Assembly (NCBI GenBank): GCA_013414795.1
Contig: CP058732.1
Coordinates: forward strand, 980,501-1,044,500
DNA: 64,000 nucleotides
DNA from: Candidatus Kapaibacterium sp.
GTDB lineage: Bacteria > Bacteroidota > Ignavibacteria > Kapaibacteriales > UBA2268
Direction: 5' to 3'
The notes below the pieces were generated by a model. The model had not been told where the DNA came from. It did no database searches and worked only from the letters and a program-made list of their open reading frames with translations. This document shows positions 34,188-43,806 of the stretch, piece by piece (position 1 is the stretch's first letter; the number at the start of each line of letters is the position of its first letter). The position numbers were made by a program, and so were the translations under genes.

Positions 34188-36020
34188 TTAATCTAAACTT
34201 GCAAATATCCGATTCCAATTAATACCTTCCCCAGGATATCCATCAATTAAATTGACAATGTAGTTTTTTGAATTAACGATTAAAACTTTTGGAACCGCAT
34301 TATCTAAATTGAATAGATTTTGTAATGATCGTGGATTTGTAATAACTTTTGCATTAAAATATGAATAAATCCATAAACCTTTAAGCTTATCAGCATTTTC
34401 AAGAGAAATTAAAAATATTTTAATTTTCTTATTTTCAATTATTGATTTAACCTTAGCTAAAGTATTGAAGACTTTTTCACAACCCGAGCATTCTGTTGAA
34501 AAGAAAATAAAAAGCTTTGGTTGATGGACGTCCGAAATTACTTCTTTAGTTCCGTCTGAATATTCAATCAATAGGTCATTAAAACTTATTCTTGTTTGTG
34601 GCAAAGAAAATCTTTTATTCAAATTTTTTAAGTAAAAAGCGATATTTTTCCCACCATATTTATTTTCTAATAATTTAGTTAAGTTTTGATATGGTAGGTC
34701 GAAAACATTTTTCAAAAACAAATTTGAAACAAAATAATATTTTATGGCAGAATCATTTTCATTTTTTCTTTCATATAGCTCCCCAATGGATAAATAAAAA
34801 AGACCTTTTGAAATTAAGTTTTTGTCAATTTTTTCAACCAATTCTTTTAAAAGATTTATACTAGTTTCATAATCGTTCGAAAAAATAGCATATCTTTTTA
34901 TTGGTTCGGTAATTAAACCAATTCCATTGTAAAGAGAATGAAAATTGTCTTGAAGATTGTAGTAAGCATCTTCATCAGAAAAATACCTCAAATAATCTTT
35001 GGTGAGTTTTTGTATTAAGAATTTAAGGGGAACGATAGAATCGGGAAGGAATTTTGTACAAAGCAAACTTGCTTTATTCAAAAGTATTTCGTACGAAGAA
35101 TCTTTTTGCAACCATCTATTTATTGTACTAATTGCAAGGGAAGGTCTAACTTTCTTTGGATCATCAACAAGGGTACCACTCGTAATAAGCGAGTGGACCG
35201 AATGGGAGTATGGATTGTATTTAATAATATTTTCCAAAATTTTTGATATACTGGCACTGTCCCGTTCAAAGTTCCTGATTAACATCTTAACAAAAAGACC
35301 CGATACTTCCCAATTATTCATAATAGGAGAAAACTTTAATTTCATAGCCAAGTTTTTAAGCATTTCTCCGTGCTCGGAGTAATTCATTATTATAGAATTT
35401 CCAACTAATTTAATAATGTCAATTTCAGGGGAATTGTTTAGCAAAGCTATTTCTTTTAGTTGCTTCATTATGGAGTCTTTTTTAATAATATTATTTTGTT
35501 CTTCGAAAGCCCACCTTACAATAAATATCGAATAATTTTCTGGGTAAAGTCGACGTTCATCATAAAAGAATTTTATGTATTCCTCTTTTGTAGAATTTAA
35601 AAGAGCGATAGAATTTGCTCCATACTCTGGTTTTCGTGAATCTATGTAAACAGGTAATCTCACAGAATATGGACAACTTAAATTAGTAAAAGGGGTTGAC
35701 AGCGAAATATGTACCCAGGATGTTTTCTTTGGAATACTCAGTTTGCCCCTAAAGTGTATGCTATCAACTTTTTCTAATTTAATAATCGTATCACGAAATG
35801 AACCCTCTCTATCAAAGTAATATATTACTTCCATATAATATTTATTCGAGTTCAAGTTTTGTGTTTTCCAAATCACTTCGTAATTATTTCCTTGGATTAA
35901 TCTACTCCCTTTTTTTATTACCAACCAATCACCAATGTGATAATCAGAAAAGTCCATATCTTTCGTGCAAGAACTACCCAAAAAGAGAATTAGCAACAAT
36001 AGTAAAAATTTTAAATACAT
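34188..36020 (-). CDS. Lipoprotein with C-terminal thioredoxin-like (TlpA) domain
   Basis: A 610-residue lipoprotein: signal MYLKFLLLLLILFLGSSC with a lipobox Cys at residue 18. The middle 400 residues are helix-rich and unrecognised. The C-terminal part is a thioredoxin-like fold with FSTECSGCEKVF, a CxxC pair about 100 residues from the end, and the cis-Pro region AVPKVLIV. The start at 36020 has a GGAGG ribosome site; the frame upstream of it contains a hairpin and is not coding. It follows the small exported gene of module A. It may act on disulfides of exported Cys-rich neighbours, an inference from position. Confidence 0.75.
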   Translation of the reverse strand: MYLKFLLLLLILFLGSSCTKDMDFSDYHIGDWLVIKKGSRLIQGNNYEVIWKTQNLNSNKYYMEVIYYFDREGSFRDTIIKLEKVDSIHFRGKLSIPKKTSWVHISLSTPFTNLSCPYSVRLPVYIDSRKPEYGANSIALLNSTKEEYIKFFYDERRLYPENYSIFIVRWAFEEQNNIIKKDSIMKQLKEIALLNNSPEIDIIKLVGNSIIMNYSEHGEMLKNLAMKLKFSPIMNNWEVSGLFVKMLIRNFERDSASISKILENIIKYNPYSHSVHSLITSGTLVDDPKKVRPSLAISTINRWLQKDSSYEILLNKASLLCTKFLPDSIVPLKFLIQKLTKDYLRYFSDEDAYYNLQDNFHSLYNGIGLITEPIKRYAIFSNDYETSINLLKELVEKIDKNLISKGLFYLSIGELYERKNENDSAIKYYFVSNLFLKNVFDLPYQNLTKLLENKYGGKNIAFYLKNLNKRFSLPQTRISFNDLLIEYSDGTKEVISDVHQPKLFIFFSTECSGCEKVFNTLAKVKSIIENKKIKIFLISLENADKLKGLWIYSYFNAKVITNPRSLQNLFNLDNAVPKVLIVNSKNYIVNLIDGYPGEGINWNRIFASLD

Positions 36021-36053
36021 TTTAACCTCCAAAATTGTTTTCATTAATGTAGT

Positions 36054-36082
36054 AGAGTAGGGGCTGTTGCAACCCCTACTCT
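36054..36082 (-). other. Intercistronic hairpin in module A
   Basis: A perfect 10-bp stem (36054-36063 with 36073-36082) with a 9-nt loop sits between the small exported gene and the TlpA-like lipoprotein gene. There is no T run on the minus strand, so it may be an mRNA-processing or stability element rather than a terminator. Confidence 0.6.
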
Positions 36083-36090
36083 CGTAGTTT

Positions 36091-36444
36091 CTAATTTTGT
36101 TCATATTTGCCTGTTATTGGATTGTACGTTGGAATTTCACCAACACCGTAAATTGATTCCCATCCCTCAGGTGGATCAGGTACCCAGGTAATACCAAACC
36201 ACCAAGTTAACCAGTCATAACAATGACATTCGAAGCCTGGTAATCCGCATTGACCTTGCCCCCATAGTAAGTTCCCATCATTGTCATAATACCTTGAAAT
36301 CTCGTACCATTTCATTGTGCATACACCAAAATAAGGATTAATATCTATTCTCCAACTTGCACCCTCGGGAACAAAGTCGGGAGTTCTACTGTTAAGCAAT
36401 AAACTTCCAAAGAAGAATAACAATATTAAAACTGTCTTTTTCAT
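36091..36444 (-). CDS. Small exported protein, unknown function (module A)
   Basis: A 117-residue protein with a signal peptide (MKKTVLILLFFFGSLLLNS). The mature part has four Cys (FGVCTMKWYEI, QCGLPGFECHCYDW) and many Trp and Tyr, ending PITGKYEQN. No family recognised. ATG 36444 has AAGGAG 7 nt upstream and a TAnnTTTG box 25 nt upstream at 36469-36476. It heads module A, behind repeat copy 1, and lies before the TlpA-like lipoprotein gene. Confidence 0.7.
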   Translation of the reverse strand: MKKTVLILLFFFGSLLLNSRTPDFVPEGASWRIDINPYFGVCTMKWYEISRYYDNDGNLLWGQGQCGLPGFECHCYDWLTWWFGITWVPDPPEGWESIYGVGEIPTYNPITGKYEQN

Positions 36445-36468
36445 TCTTCTTCTCCTTAAATTTTCAAA

Positions 36469-36476
36469 CAAAATTA
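36469..36476 (-). promoter_or_regulatory. Module A promoter box (TAATTTTG)
   Basis: TAATTTTG on the minus strand matches the Bacteroidota -7 box TAnnTTTG. It lies 25 nt before ATG 36444, the same spacing (25-26 nt) as in modules B and C. An upstream GTGCAAATA-like stretch is also shared. Confidence 0.6.
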
Positions 36477-36539
36477 TTTAAAAACTTAAGAAAAATTTTT
36501 ACGAAAAAACCAGATATATTTGCACGCTGTGTGTTCTAT

Positions 36540-36838
36540 TCAATTTACAAAAAACTTTGGTGGAAGGTTAATATTACTTGTTTTAGGTGGTCCACGGCAG
36601 CGGGAACAATGGTGGAACGGAATGCGAACCGAATCTATCGAATTGTAGCAATGCTCTGTACCCCCCCCCCGTAAGTTATTGTAAACAAAGGAGTTACAGA
36701 ACAGCAGGATTGATTATCAAAATACACACTTCCCCATTGCGTCAAAGGAATCAGAGCAGGTATGTTTCCAATCCAAATCATTTCGATTTGCAAAGTATCA
36801 AAATACAAAAATAAACAAAAAAATTAAAAATGCAAGAG
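36540..36838 (-). repeat. Dispersed repeat copy 1 with a C10 tract
   Basis: The first of three related repeats; the core 36584-36838 is shared with copies at 39.2 and 43.5 kb, and a further 30 bp is shared with copy 3 only. A run of ten C lies at 36661-36670. On the minus strand the 5' half reads MIWIGNIPALIPLTQWGSVY and on to SVTPLFTIT before the tract. The 3' half reads TEHCYNSIDSVRIPFHHC and on to the stop at 36540, but in a different frame; eleven G would join them. The rest of the 36445-36971 gap is AT-rich. Confidence 0.8.
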
Positions 36839-36971
36839 GTAGTAAAAAGATTGGGTTTCTTCTAAAAATAAGTTAAAAATAATTAATGTTCTTTAACTTC
36901 AAAAATTCGCCTAAAACCGTAATTCGAGCCTTTGTCAATTTTTCAAATTTATTAAGTATCTAAATCATAAT

Positions 36972-38441
36972 TCACTCTAAAAGAACAACCTGGGTTTGCA
37001 TTGTTTTACCTGCAATAAAGTTTATGTAGTAAATTCCACGAGCAAGTCCCTTCAAGTCTAATTCAATTTTTGCTACTCTTGCAGTTCTGTCGTATTCAAT
37101 TTGTTGAATATCTTGTGTTAAAGTGAATAACTTTTCGCCAAGCAGATTATACAATTCGATTTGAAAATCCATCAGGAATTCTAGGTCAAGAGAGAAGGCA
37201 ACAGAAACATTACCCAGAGTTGGATTTGGGTAAATATTATTGACAAAAAAGTTAGAAATTTCTTTGTTATTTCTGTTGTCATCTTCTACCGCTGTTGCCA
37301 CCGAGGGGTCGAAAACTAAAATAAGGGCTATGTCTCTAAATACCAAAATATAAATTTTTCCATCTGCTCCACATTCTATATAGTAAGCGGTGGAATTTTT
37401 TACTTCCTCCGGGAGTTCATAATAACTAATCCCAGAAAAGAAATTGTATTTTACAAGATGTGTTTTGTTAAAAGTAAACCAGAAATTGCCCGAACTATCA
37501 ATAGGTACCGTTCCAACATCTACGCCTTCCGGCAGTTTTTTAAATATCCACATACTGTCATCAATATAAATTATACCACCACCAAATAAATATAGTGCGT
37601 TTAGTTTTTGGTCATACCGAACAGAATATAACCGACCAAAATCTGGGAATAAATCAGTAACTTTTACTTTTCTAATAAATCTACTTTTTGAAATTGTTTT
37701 AATCTCAGTAGGTGTATAGATATGAGTTACTCTATCATATTTATCTACTGCACCTCCCCAATAAGGGTCTAAAACACCAGGCCCAACGGTGTCGAATATA
37801 AAAAATCTATAACCTTCGCCGGTTTCGTTACAATAGGCTAAAAATCTACCAAATGCGAAGGGCAAATCTTTTGAATCGAAAGCAAAGACCTTTCCTTTAA
37901 AATAGATTATTGTGTCCAATTCCTTCGTATAAGCCATTGGTGGATGAACATAAAACTTGTTTGAATCATATAAAATAAAACCATTGTCATAAGGAAGATC
38001 ACTCTGCCACCATTGATTGTAAACTTTTCTTAATACTTCTGTTGCCCCTGTAAACCAAAGTTTACCTTTGTGTGAAAAATTGGGATATCTAATTTGTAGA
38101 CAATACACTGTGCTATCACTGGTTTTCCCTAAAATAAAAGTGCTGTCTTGGGAAATATAATTATTTAAAAAGTCATTAATAGTCAATAAACTTAATCGAA
38201 TGGAGTCGTTTTCGTCTATTGTACCAAAGTAACCCAGAGCATAATTTTCAAATTTAAACATAGTAGTCTCGTCATAGAAGGGAATAAAAAAATTCCCCTT
38301 CCATACTGTGAAATAAGGTGGCTCTGCATTAATTACCCTTCGGTATCCTTTTAAAACAACCATCTTCCACCCATTGGGCAAAGGATATGTATTTGTACCG
38401 AAGAAAGTAATAAATATCAAAATAAACCAAACCCGTTTCAT
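36972..38441 (-). CDS. Secreted T9SS protein, propeller-like, function unknown (module B)
   Basis: A 489-residue exported protein with a signal peptide (MKRVWFILIFITFFGTNTYP). The body is beta-rich with regular aromatic and Gly-Asp turns (DGKIYILVF, IDSSGNFWFTF), suggesting a propeller of the NHL or two-component-regulator type. The C-terminal 90 residues are a T9SS sorting domain: NIYPNPTLGNVSV, IELYNLLGEKLFTL, LARGIYYINF. A second ATG four codons upstream (38453) is possible. It follows the Cys-rich gene of module B by 23-35 nt. Confidence 0.75.
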   Translation of the reverse strand: MKRVWFILIFITFFGTNTYPLPNGWKMVVLKGYRRVINAEPPYFTVWKGNFFIPFYDETTMFKFENYALGYFGTIDENDSIRLSLLTINDFLNNYISQDSTFILGKTSDSTVYCLQIRYPNFSHKGKLWFTGATEVLRKVYNQWWQSDLPYDNGFILYDSNKFYVHPPMAYTKELDTIIYFKGKVFAFDSKDLPFAFGRFLAYCNETGEGYRFFIFDTVGPGVLDPYWGGAVDKYDRVTHIYTPTEIKTISKSRFIRKVKVTDLFPDFGRLYSVRYDQKLNALYLFGGGIIYIDDSMWIFKKLPEGVDVGTVPIDSSGNFWFTFNKTHLVKYNFFSGISYYELPEEVKNSTAYYIECGADGKIYILVFRDIALILVFDPSVATAVEDDNRNNKEISNFFVNNIYPNPTLGNVSVAFSLDLEFLMDFQIELYNLLGEKLFTLTQDIQQIEYDRTARVAKIELDLKGLARGIYYINFIAGKTMQTQVVLLE

Positions 38442-38476
38442 AGTAACACCCATAATCTAAACACACATAATATTGT

Positions 38477-39022
38477 TTAATATCCGCAGTTGTCACGACA
38501 CCCATTGGGGCAAGGTGGCGAAACATACCCCTGTCTCGTTATTATATATTTTTGACCATCCCAGCATATTCTTACTGTCTCGTTGCAACGAGTTGGAATA
38601 TCACACTTCACCATTTCCCAGTGTGCATCTGGTTCGGGTTTATAAACCCATCGACTATAACAAATTTCATCCTCCCAACGAACAATGCATAATTCGCCAT
38701 CTTTGCAATTTGGAATTCGACCCCAACACTTATCTTGCCCGTGTTCTGCAATTTTTTCTATTATCTTATCTGTAACGCCTCTCTTGTCATTTTCGTAAAT
38801 AGTACTATCGCAAGGGGGAAAAATTCGAATTTGTAAAATCCTAAAATTGTGAAATCCTTGAACAATGTCGCAACAATAATCAACCTGTATTTTACACTCT
38901 ATATTATTATTAAAATAATAAAAAGTAACTGTTCTTAACGCATTCGTATCACATTCTGAATATAATTTTGTATAAAGGAATACATAAGTAAATAATACAA
39001 TTAAAATATGACTTTTTTTCAT
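38477..39022 (-). CDS. Exported Cys-rich protein, unknown function (module B)
   Basis: A 181-residue protein with a signal peptide (MKKSHILIVLFTYVFLYTKLYS) and about 16 Cys in the mature part, for example DYCCDIV, CDIPTRCNETVRIC and the C-terminal CPNGCRDNCGY. It is a distant paralogue of the module C protein: FYYFNNNIECKIQVDY aligns with FYVEFNMSPLQCTLKVWY, and RCNETVRICWDG aligns with CCLQPMRICRDC. It probably forms a disulfide-stabilised exported domain. ATG 39022 has AAAGGAG before it and TAATTTTG 26 nt upstream. Confidence 0.75.
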   Translation of the reverse strand: MKKSHILIVLFTYVFLYTKLYSECDTNALRTVTFYYFNNNIECKIQVDYCCDIVQGFHNFRILQIRIFPPCDSTIYENDKRGVTDKIIEKIAEHGQDKCWGRIPNCKDGELCIVRWEDEICYSRWVYKPEPDAHWEMVKCDIPTRCNETVRICWDGQKYIITRQGYVSPPCPNGCRDNCGY

Positions 39023-39047
39023 TTTTTCTCCTTTCTTATTTGTTAAA

Positions 39048-39055
39048 CAAAATTA
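39048..39055 (-). promoter_or_regulatory. Module B promoter box (TAATTTTG)
   Basis: TAATTTTG on the minus strand lies 26 nt before ATG 39022. The same region is found upstream of modules A and C, including an upstream CGTGCAAATA stretch. Confidence 0.6.
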
Positions 39056-39173
39056 TTTAAAATTTTTTAAAAATGAATAATTTATTACGAATTACCAACT
39101 GTATTTGCACGTGTTTATTCAATCAATTGACATAGAACTAAAATGTAGAACATTCATCATTTATCATAGGCGG

Positions 39174-39429
39174 TAGGTGGTCCACGACAACTTGAACAAT
39201 GGTGGAACGGAATGCGAACCGAATCTATCGAATTGTAGCAATGCTCTGTACCCCCCCCGTGTAAGTTATTGTAAACAAAGGAGTTACAGAACAACAGATA
39301 TGATTTTCAAAATACACACTTCCCCATTGCGTTAAAGGAATTCGAGCAGATATGTTACTAAACCAAATCATTTCGATTGGCAAAGTATCAAATTGGAAAA
39401 ATAAACAAAAAAAATTAAAAATGCAAGAG
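39174..39429 (-). repeat. Dispersed repeat copy 2 with a C8 tract
   Basis: The core is nearly identical to copies 1 and 3 over the 60 bp next to the tract. The eight-C run is at 39251-39258. On the minus strand the 5' half reads MIWFSNISARIPLTQWGSVY; a Met is conserved in all copies (39371 here). The 3' half reads TEHCYNSIDSVRIPFHHC and ends soon after CRGPP. The halves are out of frame by one base; nine G would join them. The rest of the 39023-39614 gap shows nothing further. Confidence 0.8.
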
Positions 39430-39614
39430 ATTTGGGGATGGCTTTTGCCCAAGGTTGTTGTTTATGTTTTTTGTCGAATTTGAACTTTTGTTTCGCTTAA
39501 AGAATTAGATGCTATTTCTGAATTGTATTATCTTTAAAATTTCAATTCTGGAAGTGTAGTTTGACAAATGCCCATTCCGCTACTCGATGATGAAAGTAAA
39601 TTTCCTATAATATG

Positions 39615-40841
39615 TCAGAACTTTACAAATTGACAATATCTTAAATCTCCTTTTTTATTTATTATTTTTATAAAATACATTCCCGCGGGTTGATGGGAAA
39701 AAGGAATTATTTTTATTTGCTCGCCTTCTTCCAAAGTAACTTTTGCTACAATCTCACCAATCTGATTTGTAACAATTAGATTTGCTTGTTCGTAGTCTTC
39801 CCGTTCGATTCGGAGAAAATCTGTTGCTGGATTGGGAAAGATTTTTAAGTTTCCTTTTGGTGTCAAATCATCATCTAATTTACTTAATTCAATATCTTCC
39901 AATTTCGCCCGATAAATACCCCCAGTATAAGTTCCAACAAATACGTAATCTCCAAATATTGCAAGAGCCTTTGTCCTTTTTTCAACCATTCCACTATCTT
40001 TTAAAACCCAGCTTTCACCTTTGTTACTCGAAAAATATACTCCCTTTGTGGTTCCAGCAAAAATATTATTACCTTTCGATGCAAAACAAACTACAGTCCG
40101 ACTTGGATACGGAATACCTTCGTTTTTTTCTTGCCAGGTTTCTCCAAAGTCTGTTGACACAAAAACACCGCTACCGGCACCCCCGCCAAAAACATAATCA
40201 CCACTTACATGAAGGCTAAGTATAGTTGAATATGGTAGCCCTTTGCTTTTATCCACTCTTCTCCAAAAATCTCCATTGTCGGTTGAAATGTAAACAAAGT
40301 AAGCAGTCGAAGCAAAAAGGTAATTGCCAAGTGCTGCAATCGAATAGATTGAGAATTCACTCAAACCATTAATTTTTTTCGTCCAACTTTCCCCAAAGTC
40401 AGTGGATAAAAAAATTCCCTCATTATCACCATCTGTCACACCAAGTCCTCCTACATATATGTTATTTCCACTATTAGTAATACAACTTAAAACAATTGGG
40501 CCTTCGATACCTTTATTTTTAAGTGTCCAATTGTTACCTTCATCAGTCGAAAGAAAAATCTTGCCATAGTATGTTACAATAAATATCTTATCCTCAATTA
40601 TTGCCATTCCTCGTATAGAAGTATCGCTCAAACCATCACTCCTTTTAATCCAGGTGGCTCCAAAATCGGTTGAAACAAAAAATCCGCCGTCGGTTCCAGC
40701 AAAAATTTTATTTCCACTTACCCCAAAACACCATACTGTTTTCGCGATTTCTGATGTTAAACCATTGTTCATTTCTACCCATTGCGACTTAGCTTCAATT
40801 GACAATAAAATTAAAACAAAAATCAATATTGCTCTTTTCAA
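39615..40841 (-). CDS. Secreted Asp-box (BNR-like) propeller protein with T9SS domain (module C)
   Basis: A 408-residue exported protein with a signal peptide (MKRAILIFVLILLSIEAKS). At least six Asp-box motifs (VSTDFGATWIK, LSTDEGNNWTLK, LSTDFGESWTKK, ISTDNGDFWRR, VSTDFGETWQEK, FSSNKGESWVLK) are spaced by 40-50 residues, indicating a sialidase-like beta-propeller. No catalytic residues of sialidases are evident. The C-terminal T9SS domain shows KIFPNPATDFLRIE and QPAGMYFIKII. It is the last gene of module C. Confidence 0.82.
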   Translation of the reverse strand: MKRAILIFVLILLSIEAKSQWVEMNNGLTSEIAKTVWCFGVSGNKIFAGTDGGFFVSTDFGATWIKRSDGLSDTSIRGMAIIEDKIFIVTYYGKIFLSTDEGNNWTLKNKGIEGPIVLSCITNSGNNIYVGGLGVTDGDNEGIFLSTDFGESWTKKINGLSEFSIYSIAALGNYLFASTAYFVYISTDNGDFWRRVDKSKGLPYSTILSLHVSGDYVFGGGAGSGVFVSTDFGETWQEKNEGIPYPSRTVVCFASKGNNIFAGTTKGVYFSSNKGESWVLKDSGMVEKRTKALAIFGDYVFVGTYTGGIYRAKLEDIELSKLDDDLTPKGNLKIFPNPATDFLRIEREDYEQANLIVTNQIGEIVAKVTLEEGEQIKIIPFSHQPAGMYFIKIINKKGDLRYCQFVKF

Positions 40842-41006
40842 TTCTCCTTCCTTTATTAATTGAACAGATTTTTATATTATTGTAGTTCAAATTTTTCTTC
40901 ACATTTCCTAGCATTTAATAATATTGGGAAGTATTTAAAAAATTCCAACACTGTTCTAAAAATTTTTGTCCTCTAACTTCTGATAACACAAAACAAGTTT
41001 TGGTTG

Positions 41007-42344
41007 TTACATCTTTACAAACTTCAAGATTTTGCTGCCTACCCGAACGAAGTACACCCCCGGGGGAAATTCCCTTATCTCAATTTCTTCATTTGTATGC
41101 GTTTCAATTATCCTTTCACCTAGTGAATTGTATATCGTTACATTTTCGTCTTTGTTTCCTTGGATTATCAATCTGTTTTCCACTGGATTTGGTACAATTA
41201 AAATTTCACTACCATCTATATCCTTATCCAAAACTTCCAAAGGTTCACTTACCCTATAATGAATCAAATAGGCACCGCCTGAGTATATCGGCTGTTTTAC
41301 ATTTCGCCAACAAACTACTGGTGGACTTAGAAAAAGAGTTTTATTTAAATCCTCATTAATATTGTCAGGGAACCAAGTCTTTCCCCCGTCGCTTGTTATC
41401 ATTGTCAATCCAGCCCGTGCTACCGCAATACCGTTGTATCTATCGTGAAAGGATACGTCCATAAATGGCATTAAAAATTTTAGGGAATCGTAAAATTGAA
41501 CAAACCAAGAACGACCGCCGTCAGTTGTTGCACATAATTTTGCAATTTCCTGGTCACCAACCCCATTTGAAACGCCACCAACTATCCAACCATATAATGA
41601 GTCTGCAAAATACATCTTACGTGTATTTTCTGTTACTCCCGCATCATAAAATTCCCAAGTTTTTCCCAAATCGTATGTCCTTAAAAAGGTGTATTTATAT
41701 GGGCAACTATCCGATTGAGAGAAACAAACCATCTTTACGTAAATAGTTGTTTGGTTAATAATGTTTGCCCACCCAATACCTCGATTATCCAGATTTGTTA
41801 TCGGCAAGTTTATTTCTTTCCAACTTTCGCCTCCATCATTTGTGTAAAACAGCCTTCGACAAAACGCTATACCGTATGTTGAATCCAGCATTTGAACGAG
41901 AGATATACGCTTATATAATTCCCAAGTATCTTCATAAAAAATTGGAGTATAAACTCTTTTCCAATTTTTTCCGCCGTCGTCGGTTTTAAATATTATTCCG
42001 CTGTCGCCACCAATTATGCATTTATTCTTTGTCGGCGAGGCCAGGCTACGAGGTAAAAAAGTAAAATTTATCGGTTTCCATTTAATTGTATCATAATCTT
42101 TTAAATAAATAAGTTCCCAATTCCTTCCAGCATCAGTCGAACGATAAATAGCAAGACAAACACCACCAACATCAGCAACTGAATAGCAATTTAAAGAGTC
42201 AGAACAATCGATACCTCGAATGTACCATTCCGTCATAACTGGTTGGTTTGGATCGCCAAACTCTTTTAATTTAACTCTAACCCACTCCGTTCGTATGCTT
42301 AGAACATTAATCAGTAATAGCAAAACAACCAAAATCTTTTTCAT
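41007..42344 (-). CDS. Secreted Ycf48-like propeller protein with T9SS domain (module C)
   Basis: A 445-residue exported protein with a signal peptide (MKKILVVLLLLINVLSIR). Asp-box strands include RSTDAGRNWELI, KTDDGGKNWKRV, YTNDGGESWKEI, and ATTDGGRSWFVQ, as in Ycf48/Hcf136-type propellers. The T9SS domain is at the end: IVPNPVENRLII, VTIYNSLGERIIE, FPPGVYFVRVG. It lies 79 nt after the Cys-rich gene of module C and 166 nt before the Asp-box gene. Function unknown beyond a secreted propeller. Confidence 0.82.
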   Translation of the reverse strand: MKKILVVLLLLINVLSIRTEWVRVKLKEFGDPNQPVMTEWYIRGIDCSDSLNCYSVADVGGVCLAIYRSTDAGRNWELIYLKDYDTIKWKPINFTFLPRSLASPTKNKCIIGGDSGIIFKTDDGGKNWKRVYTPIFYEDTWELYKRISLVQMLDSTYGIAFCRRLFYTNDGGESWKEINLPITNLDNRGIGWANIINQTTIYVKMVCFSQSDSCPYKYTFLRTYDLGKTWEFYDAGVTENTRKMYFADSLYGWIVGGVSNGVGDQEIAKLCATTDGGRSWFVQFYDSLKFLMPFMDVSFHDRYNGIAVARAGLTMITSDGGKTWFPDNINEDLNKTLFLSPPVVCWRNVKQPIYSGGAYLIHYRVSEPLEVLDKDIDGSEILIVPNPVENRLIIQGNKDENVTIYNSLGERIIETHTNEEIEIREFPPGVYFVRVGSKILKFVKM

Positions 42345-42422
42345 CTTTGTCTCCTATTAGTAAGTTAAATAAAATAAAACCGACGGAAAAGAGAAAAACT
42401 CTTTTCCATCGTAACATTACAA

Positions 42423-43375
42423 TTACTTTTTCAGAATAAGCTTGTCTGTTTTAAGCAATTGACCATTTACGAAAATGCTATATACATAATTGCCTTCCAT
42501 CAGATTGTGTAAATCTAATTTGATTTCGCTACGCCCCGCTTGGAGTTCACCCTCGCGTTGAATGTAAATTTTTCCATAAGGGTCGGTTATAAGAATTTTA
42601 TATGTGCCCTCGCTTTCCGTTGTAATTACAATAGGAAATTCATTGCTTTTTAATTGAAGAACATTGTCTATCTTCTCAATTTTATTTGTTTCGTCAATCT
42701 TCGGCGAGATAATACCAGAATAAAGAAACCAGTTACAGAGAGGGGTGCAGAGCGTTCCAGGTGGGGCTTGTGGTGGGGGCTCTGCTGCTCCACAATTTTC
42801 CGAAGGCCAAGGTTCACCCAATGGGTCAATTTGTATAATATTCGATGGACAATCCCGGCAAATCCTCATTGGTTGAAGACAGCAATCTCCTCCCATACAG
42901 GGTACTGTTACCGTACATTGATGTCCAGCACAATCTAAATCGAATGTAGCCCAACACGTCGCTAGGCTAATTCGCCATTGTTCATTGCAATAAATACCCG
43001 GTGGCGTTTCTTCATTACAAGTATTTGGTGGAAAACCCATTGGATTACTCTGAATTAACTTATAATATGCGGTTTTAAACAATTTCTCCTTTGGCAAATA
43101 AACACCGCAATCCGAACCTTCTGTTTCGATTTTTAGGATTTGTACGTCATAATAGAGAAAGCAAGCGAGTCGAAAAGTATACCATACTTTTAAAGTACAC
43201 TGTAATGGACTCATATTAAATTCGACGTAAAAACCCGGAGTGGGGAAAGGAGTCTAAAACAATCTGGATTGCAAGGGTCTGGAACCGGCTCTTGGCTATA
43301 TAACTTAACTGCAAACAACCCAACAAAGAGCAGGGTTGCCAAAAATAGACTTGTTTTAATAATTATTTTTTTCAT
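42423..43375 (-). pseudogene. Frameshifted exported Cys-rich protein (module C)
   Basis: Two overlapping frames encode one paralogue of the module B Cys-rich protein. The ATG at 43375 begins a signal peptide (MKKIIIKTSLFLATLLFVGL) and continues to DPCNPDCFRLLSP, then runs to a stop at 43211. From about 43250 the other frame reads GFYVEFNMSPLQCTLKVWY and stays open to 42423 with some 17 Cys (CTVTVPCMGGDCC, MRICRDC, LCTPLCNW). A T9SS-like C-terminus follows (SEGTYKILITDPYGKI, LMEGNYVYSIF). One base is missing near the short C, G and T runs at 43230-43255. It may be a real disruption, a phase-variant state or a sequence error. Confidence 0.75.
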
Positions 43376-43400
43376 TTCAACACCTTTAACTTTTTTAAAA

Positions 43401-43408
43401 CAAAAATA
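43401..43408 (-). promoter_or_regulatory. Module C promoter box (TATTTTTG)
   Basis: TATTTTTG on the minus strand fits TAnnTTTG. It lies 26 nt before ATG 43375, matching the spacing of the boxes in modules A and B. Confidence 0.55.
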
Positions 43409-43466
43409 TTAAGGTTTTTTAAAAAATTGATTTCGAAGTCTCCAACAGTATTTGCAAAAATTTTTT

Positions 43467-43761
43467 CTATCTTTTGACAAAGAACTTTGGAGAAAGGTTA
43501 ACCTTACTTGTTTTAGGTGGTCCACGACAACTTGAACAATGGTGGAACGGAATGCGTACCGAATCTATCGAATTGTAGCAATGCTCTGTACTCCCCCCCC
43601 CCCGTATTCAAAGGAGTTACAGAATAACAGATTTGATTATCAAAAAACACACTTCTACAATGCGTTAAAGGAATCAGAGAAGATATGTTTCTAAACCAAA
43701 CCATTTCGATTGGCAAAGTATCAAATTGCAAAATAAACAAAAAAAATTAAAAATGCAAGAA
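43467..43761 (-). repeat. Dispersed repeat copy 3 with a C11 tract
   Basis: Eleven C lie at 43593-43603, after a CT; a 14-bp stretch present in the other copies beside the tract is deleted. On the minus strand the 5' half reads MVWFRNISSLIPLTHCRSVF. The 3' half reads TEHCYNSIDSVRIPFHHC, then CRGPPKTSKVNLSPKFF to a stop at 43467. The present length joins the 5' half to a third frame instead; ten G would restore it. The flank shared with copy 1 begins near 43481. Confidence 0.8.
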
Positions 43762-43806
43762 GTTTAAAATTCTTTTACTCTCCTACTGATAATTTACAAA
43801 AATTAT

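Follow-up and report, generated by a model that had tools for sequence, protein, structure and literature searches.

The window analysed here, a 64,000-nt stretch of contig CP058732.1 from Candidatus Kapaibacterium sp., carries three successive modules on its minus strand. Each comprises a repeat, a shared promoter layout and genes for exported proteins: cysteine-rich (Cys-rich) proteins, type IX secretion system (T9SS) proteins and a lipoprotein-like protein. An initial annotation had placed this arrangement here, and repeats, promoter layout and genes were all recovered at the same positions. We focus on the repeat, hereafter the leader, whose main feature seems to be one that the annotation overlooked: a small upstream open reading frame (ORF) that contains a slippage tract as well as the R[GA]PP arrest motif. 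The three window copies are direct repeats, and in a gap-free comparison repeats 2 and 3 are 90% and 61% identical to copy 1; BLAST gives 91% and 86% for these two.

Tract-bearing leaders in the genome and its relatives

A BLAST search of the closed 2.66-Mb genome (G000) recovered 13 near-complete and two partial copies of this ~255-bp repeat (class I), in five clusters near 256-268, 517-536, 742-745, 1017-1024 and 2399 kb. All 13 near-complete copies precede genes that by eye encode exported small Cys-rich proteins, T9SS propellers or lipoproteins. The annotation had named copies lying mostly at unrelated sites as the outcome that would undo its proposal, and no such scatter was found. From repeat start to the next start codon found is 387-414 nt in 11 of the 13; the distance is 494 nt for L005, and the start-codon listing did not resolve L008.

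A profile of the Cys-rich protein family (A3) found nine members in G000, three behind class I repeats and six behind another leader (class II). This second leader has nine copies: a group of seven at 437-481 kb and single ones at 1884 and 2027 kb. Eight of the nine contain a tract of (AG)5 to (AG)9; the tract of the remaining one (437) is degenerate. Both classes have a common 3' end around TGCCGTGGACC, and their tracts, although of different kinds (G versus GA), occupy an identical position.

Such tracts are concentrated in the leaders. G000 contains 12 runs of at least eight G, eight of them inside class I leaders and four within ORFs, and ten (AG) runs of at least five units, eight of them inside class II leaders and two within ORFs. 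Together the 22 leaders cover about 0.2% of G000, giving binomial P values of about 1e-19 for G tracts and 1e-20 for AG tracts, which are overstated because the leader copies are related. Over-representation is accompanied by variation in tract length between copies, as expected of contingency loci. Elsewhere in G000, a ten-C run on the coding strand (G000:C1:1336159-1336168, L150) lies inside an 899-residue ORF with a T9SS-like end and could itself be phase-variable.

A DNA search of 100 genomes for the repeat returned, outside G000, only short matches, mostly to the AT-rich 5' end, and a profile model (R1) was needed. Across 54 genomes of the family, the class I sequence profile gave ten matches in G002, two in G003 and single weak matches in seven more. 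G002 and G003 belong to the same genus as G000, and both carry such leaders, with G-runs in G002 and GA-runs in G003; most are followed by pairs of Cys-rich and propeller genes. Exact-pattern scans found nothing in viral contigs, and a first scan of genome contigs was likewise empty. A protein search of 60 genomes with one leader ORF yielded no convincing relative outside G000 (best 0.014, G002). Its four-copy match in G063 was rejected, as it belongs to an unrelated repeat, Rhs-like by eye. That G063 locus (L079, G063:C1:2496001-2516000), from the same order, is a tandem array of Rhs-like appearance with several repeats 0.2-1 kb long, unrelated to the leader.

A split upstream reading frame and its R[GA]PP motif

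The leaders share one anatomy. A conserved ATG opens a frame that runs into the tract, and beyond the tract a fixed, different frame encodes C-S-x-C-R-[G/A]-P-P. Read from the sequence, the leader is very probably a small upstream ORF split by a slippage tract. Three papers describe a class of ribosome-arrest peptides built around R-A/G-P-P (PMC10951233, PMC10987492, PMC12992588); RGPP, according to PMC12992588, gives the most robust arrest and is the most excluded tetrapeptide in many phyla.

By eye, 28 of 36 leaders retain R[GA]PP (class I 9/13, class II 8/9, G002 8/11, G003 3/3), a set that excludes a 5' piece (L086:5250-5406) and the partial G000 copies L014 and L015. The CxxCR[GA]PP codon string occurs 18 times in G000, 17 times in leaders and once in a partial copy at 741.9 kb; the reversed pattern is absent. 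Over the 54 genomes, counts were 18 in G000, six in G002, three in G003 and one in G046, opposite a long ORF, against a single reversed match, in G007. Searching with the string alone retrieved one more G003 leader, bringing the number there to three; its long GA tract is where it would be expected, and the gene that follows encodes a Cys-rich exported protein. The motif had been noticed before it was tested. R[AG]PP was absent from 72,566 residues of ORFs of at least 150 amino acids (266 kb), a weak control in that the comparable [AKSTG][AG]PP occurs there only once.

We then asked whether the two halves of the frame evolve as coding sequence. Leader ORF length is mildly unusual, with 9 to 305 of 2000 dinucleotide shuffles reaching the observed value in seven leaders tried. 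Before the tract, with 3 to 6 chosen divergent rows per test, residue similarity exceeds expectation in class II (p 0.008) and G003 (p 0.001). After the tract, the strongest coding signal is that of the motif frame (frame C), in which 62% of differing codons are synonymous versus 21% expected (0/5000 permutations; ten chosen divergent rows); in the same rows the antisense frame sharing third positions reaches 41% (p 0.007). Over 72 nt, again with 3 to 6 chosen rows per test, frame C residue similarity was matched in 0/1500 permutations both among G000 class I rows and across lineages, and its synonymous fraction gave p 0.068 and 0/1500, respectively; the antisense frame was not unusual among the class I rows (p 0.19). 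Sense frame C is therefore better supported than the antisense frame, short of proof. Between close copies, the ratio of non-synonymous to synonymous differences (pN/pS) is mixed and unconvincing; its lower values are 0.38 in frame C of class I (11 of 13 copies) and 0.70 before the tract in class II (8 of 9 copies). Another post-tract frame, YRALLQFDRFG, was favoured at first and dropped when frame C scored better.

Predicted arrest gating and its alternatives

Our best reading is that these are phase-variable arrest-peptide leaders on recombining surface-protein cassettes. Slippage would alter tract length and so set the frame of a ribosome that started at the ATG; the frame would decide whether that ribosome translates R[GA]PP and stalls there. 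As in the CruR model, stalling would shield the message from Rho, and the exported operon would be transcribed. In other tract states the ribosome would end early or pass, leaving the gene to any promoter behind the leader. The prediction is that each cassette would switch its Cys-rich or propeller surface proteins at random and in a heritable way. As a prediction from sequence, slippage-gated arrest in front of exported cassettes stands for us at an even balance. The fuller proposal, about twenty post-transcriptional switches genome-wide, each a slippage-gated R[GA]PP peptide, with gene conversion homogenising and moving the leaders, is more tentative and falls somewhat below that balance.

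Several observations weigh against arrest gating. Only three of the 30 leaders evaluable among the 36 (L013 included, though its ORF is broken after two codons) have ATG and motif in one frame, namely L010, L011, where RGPP lies five residues before the end, and L088 of G003 (RGPP); one of these, L010, reads RGTP. The motif is out of frame in all three window leaders, in the L159 leader and in those three class I copies that lack a long G-run. Against a free expectation of one third, 3/30 has P 0.0033, for copies that are not independent; the shortage fits a mostly-off family, or counts against the model. By eye, most leader ORFs lack the N-terminal export signal of many R[AG]PP leaders: it is absent from the G000 and G003 ORFs, and a hydrophobic start is possible in some G002 copies. 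Before the tract, synonymous fractions are not significant (p 0.07 in class II, 0.31 in G003) and pN/pS is 1.01 in class I; in class II the motif frame itself has 0.98. The antisense frame also scores across lineages (similarity 0/1500, synonymous p 0.006). Finally, a TAnnTTTG box lies between leader and gene in many loci, and also occurs in five of nine loci that have no leader.

Arrest gating does not account for this box. Of 35 loci tested, 24 have it 29-34 nt upstream of the gene, where shuffles would yield 2.9; among class I loci the count is 5 of 11. The leader may reinforce this promoter or disturb it.

Among the alternatives, the strongest, though unlikely, is a phase-variable leader that works without arrest: tract length would set how far translation extends, and coupling or polarity alone would change expression. 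The tracts and open frames also suit this, four class II leaders have a frame whose end lies 20 nt upstream of the gene start, and the Streptococcus gallolyticus pilus leader offers a precedent (PMC3894217). What it leaves unexplained is why C-S-x-C-R-[GA]-P-P persists in one fixed frame across lineages, and no terminator-like hairpin was found in the three window leaders.

It is improbable that there is no switch at all and that the leader is a co-duplicated, gene-converted intergenic region whose tracts and motif are by-products of an old reading frame. Out-of-frame motifs in most leaders, pN/pS near 1 in places and homogenisation within the genome would all follow, yet the concentration of tracts in leaders, the two tract kinds at one place and the coding signal across divergent lineages speak against it. 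Marginally more improbable is a separate phase-variable small gene acting in trans, with the next gene using the box behind the leader. The frequency of that box favours such a gene. Against it, the product would be short and, in its part ahead of the tract, highly variable; 6 of the 11 class I loci tested showed no box; and the leader always precedes exported genes. It is highly improbable, despite the many copies in five clusters, that the leader is a structured RNA or a mobile element that multiplied by insertion: no inverted ends are seen by eye, the same gene family accompanies leaders in other species, no Rfam family reached its gathering score (the single sub-threshold match, to U6, has 20.2 bits where 44 are needed), and folding showed no excess over shuffles (z 0.28 sense, 2.16 antisense).

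Arrest-gated leaders would resemble several known systems in part. Like R[AG]PP arrest ORFs such as ApdA and ApdP (PMC10951233, PMC10987492, PMC12992588), they would be small upstream ORFs with the motif near the C-terminus, followed by a same-strand gene with exported functions; the gene behind the leader does run in the direction of the leader ORF. Unlike those, the leaders here are tract-split, have many paralogs per genome and mostly no visible export signal, and their arrest is predicted only. The CruR (DUF2946) upstream ORF, in the accessible part of PMC9426467, also combines CXXC and R[AG]PP at the head of an operon with a long spacer to the next gene, but there the two motifs are about 45 residues apart, whereas here CXXC adjoins RGPP, and no tract is apparent in CruR. 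The DUF2946 profile did not match the two in-frame RGPP leader peptides examined (L011 and L088 of G003). In the S. gallolyticus Pil1/Pil3 leader (PMC3894217), tandem-repeat slippage in a leader ORF sets the frame and with it surface-gene expression, as is predicted here. That leader has a pentamer repeat and a hairpin terminator; the present ones carry an arrest motif and a tract of G or GA, occupy many loci and showed no terminator in the three window copies.

In Neisseria and Campylobacter, contingency loci likewise tie poly-G or short-unit tracts to surface genes. Those tracts mostly lie within the surface gene or its promoter, in contrast to the separate upstream ORF here. In open-licence PubMed Central papers we found no combination of slippage phase variation with nascent-peptide arrest: a query for phase variation and arrest peptides matched one paper, on polyproline motifs in E. 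coli, one for phase variation and leader peptides brought up the S. gallolyticus pilus system among others, and queries for Kapabacteria with phase variation, and for ribosome stalling with phase-variable leader peptides, returned none. If true, arrest gating would join these two known devices, and R[GA]PP in 17 of 22 leaders would mean that arrest peptides serve random diversity and not sensing alone. The leaders form a natural tract-length series and point to a possible phase-variable surface family in uncultured Kapabacteria.

Possible cassette exchange, module genes and relatives

The annotation had proposed a duplicated, re-loaded cassette, and the distribution of similarity is consistent with it: leaders of one genome, and in many cases their signal peptides, closely resemble each other, unlike mature cargo. 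Leader DNA identity is 80-95% in G000 class II and 92-97% among five G002 leaders (71-79% for the outlier L086), and 69-83% between genomes. Signal-peptide DNA is 77-100% identical in G000 class II and 98-100% in four G002 genes, with L087 at 69-72%; mature cargo DNA is 67-79% identical for all pairs, a range that includes the aligner floor for unrelated pairs. Across species, mature cargo proteins have clear relatives, at 73% (473279-473887 versus G002 L084), 61% (437307 versus L081, which is not directly behind its leader) and 55% (466720 versus L083). The first and last of these pairs also fit re-loading: in each, the G000 gene has a class II leader and its G002 ortholog a class I leader. 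In the class II array, the conserved blocks correspond to propeller C-terminus, leader and signal peptide; recombination between such constant blocks would give leader homogenisation together with cross-species cargo orthology. That array (G000:C1:434001-482000, L128-L130) consists of blocks of up to about 1 kb that are 86-96% alike, with variable parts between them.

Table 1. Features of the three modules, in window coordinates.
Feature	Coordinates	Strand	Remark
Leader repeat 3 (class I, L009)	43494..43763	minus	
Leader ORF of repeat 3 as present, 63 aa	43513..43704	minus	arrest motif out of frame
G11 tract of repeat 3	43593..43603	minus	
C-S-S-C-R-G-P-P codon string, repeat 3	43516..43538	minus	
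TAnnTTTG box, first gene of module 3	43401..43408	minus	33 nt 5' of start codon
Cys-rich exported gene of module 3, frameshifted	42423..43375 (43375-43211 + 43214-42423)	minus	
T9SS propeller protein	41007..42344	minus	Pfam
T9SS propeller protein	39615..40841	minus	Pfam
Leader repeat 2 (class I, L004)	39174..39429	minus	
Leader ORF of repeat 2 as present, 48 aa	39225..39371	minus	arrest motif out of frame
G8 tract of repeat 2	39251..39258	minus	
C-S-S-C-R-G-P-P codon string, repeat 2	39176..39198	minus	
TAnnTTTG box, first gene of module 2	39048..39055	minus	33 nt 5' of start codon
Cys-rich exported protein, family A3	38477..39022	minus	
T9SS protein	36972..38453	minus	Por_Secre_tail
Leader repeat 1 (class I, L001)	36560..36840	minus	
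Leader ORF of repeat 1 as present, 48 aa	36635..36781	minus	arrest motif out of frame
G10 tract of repeat 1	36661..36670	minus	
C-S-R-C-R-G-P-P codon string, repeat 1	36586..36608	minus	
TAnnTTTG box, first gene of module 1	36469..36476	minus	32 nt 5' of start codon
Small exported Cys-containing protein, 117 aa	36091..36444	minus	no Pfam/NCBIfam match
Lipoprotein-like exported protein, 638 aa	34188..36104	minus	lipobox-like N-terminus by eye

The gene assignments of the annotation largely stood (Table 1). All three genes listed as T9SS carry Por_Secre_tail above the Pfam cut-off, and both propeller genes have BNR/Sortilin propeller matches in Pfam. The Cys-rich gene of module 3 is present and exported as described, but it is frameshifted (near 43214-43240) and not intact, and its weak T9SS tail falls below the cut-off; by eye, the G003 gene at L159:1641-2291 appears to be an intact relative. 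The TlpA-like label of the 638-residue protein found no support in Pfam, NCBIfam or PDB sequences (best E 0.73, unrelated). A structure model of the Cys-rich protein was too weak for a fold search (mean predicted local distance difference test score, pLDDT, 62.6).

The annotation further suggested checking in related genomes whether the repeat always precedes small Cys-rich exported genes. Leaders in the two congeneric genomes do precede exported genes. The Cys-rich family itself is present in 23 of the 54 genomes, and seven upstream regions examined from five other genera contained no G or GA tract. Another G003 Cys-rich gene (C4) has only (CT)4 upstream. At L138 (G019:C309), the upstream regions of three Cys-rich genes share a ACAAAGATT...AATCTTTGCTTGCAGGTAACTGCAAAAA stretch that by eye could form a hairpin. 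In G018 (L141:1713-1789, G018:C104), a Cys-rich A3 gene is preceded, at a distance of about 230-306 nt, by eleven perfect heptamer copies, possibly an independent contingency tract before the same gene family. A leader-cargo pair of another type is conserved between species: a 'GERNGWK' gene stands behind a leader both in the L010 module of G000 (G000:C1:267369-268575) and at L086:3858-4562.

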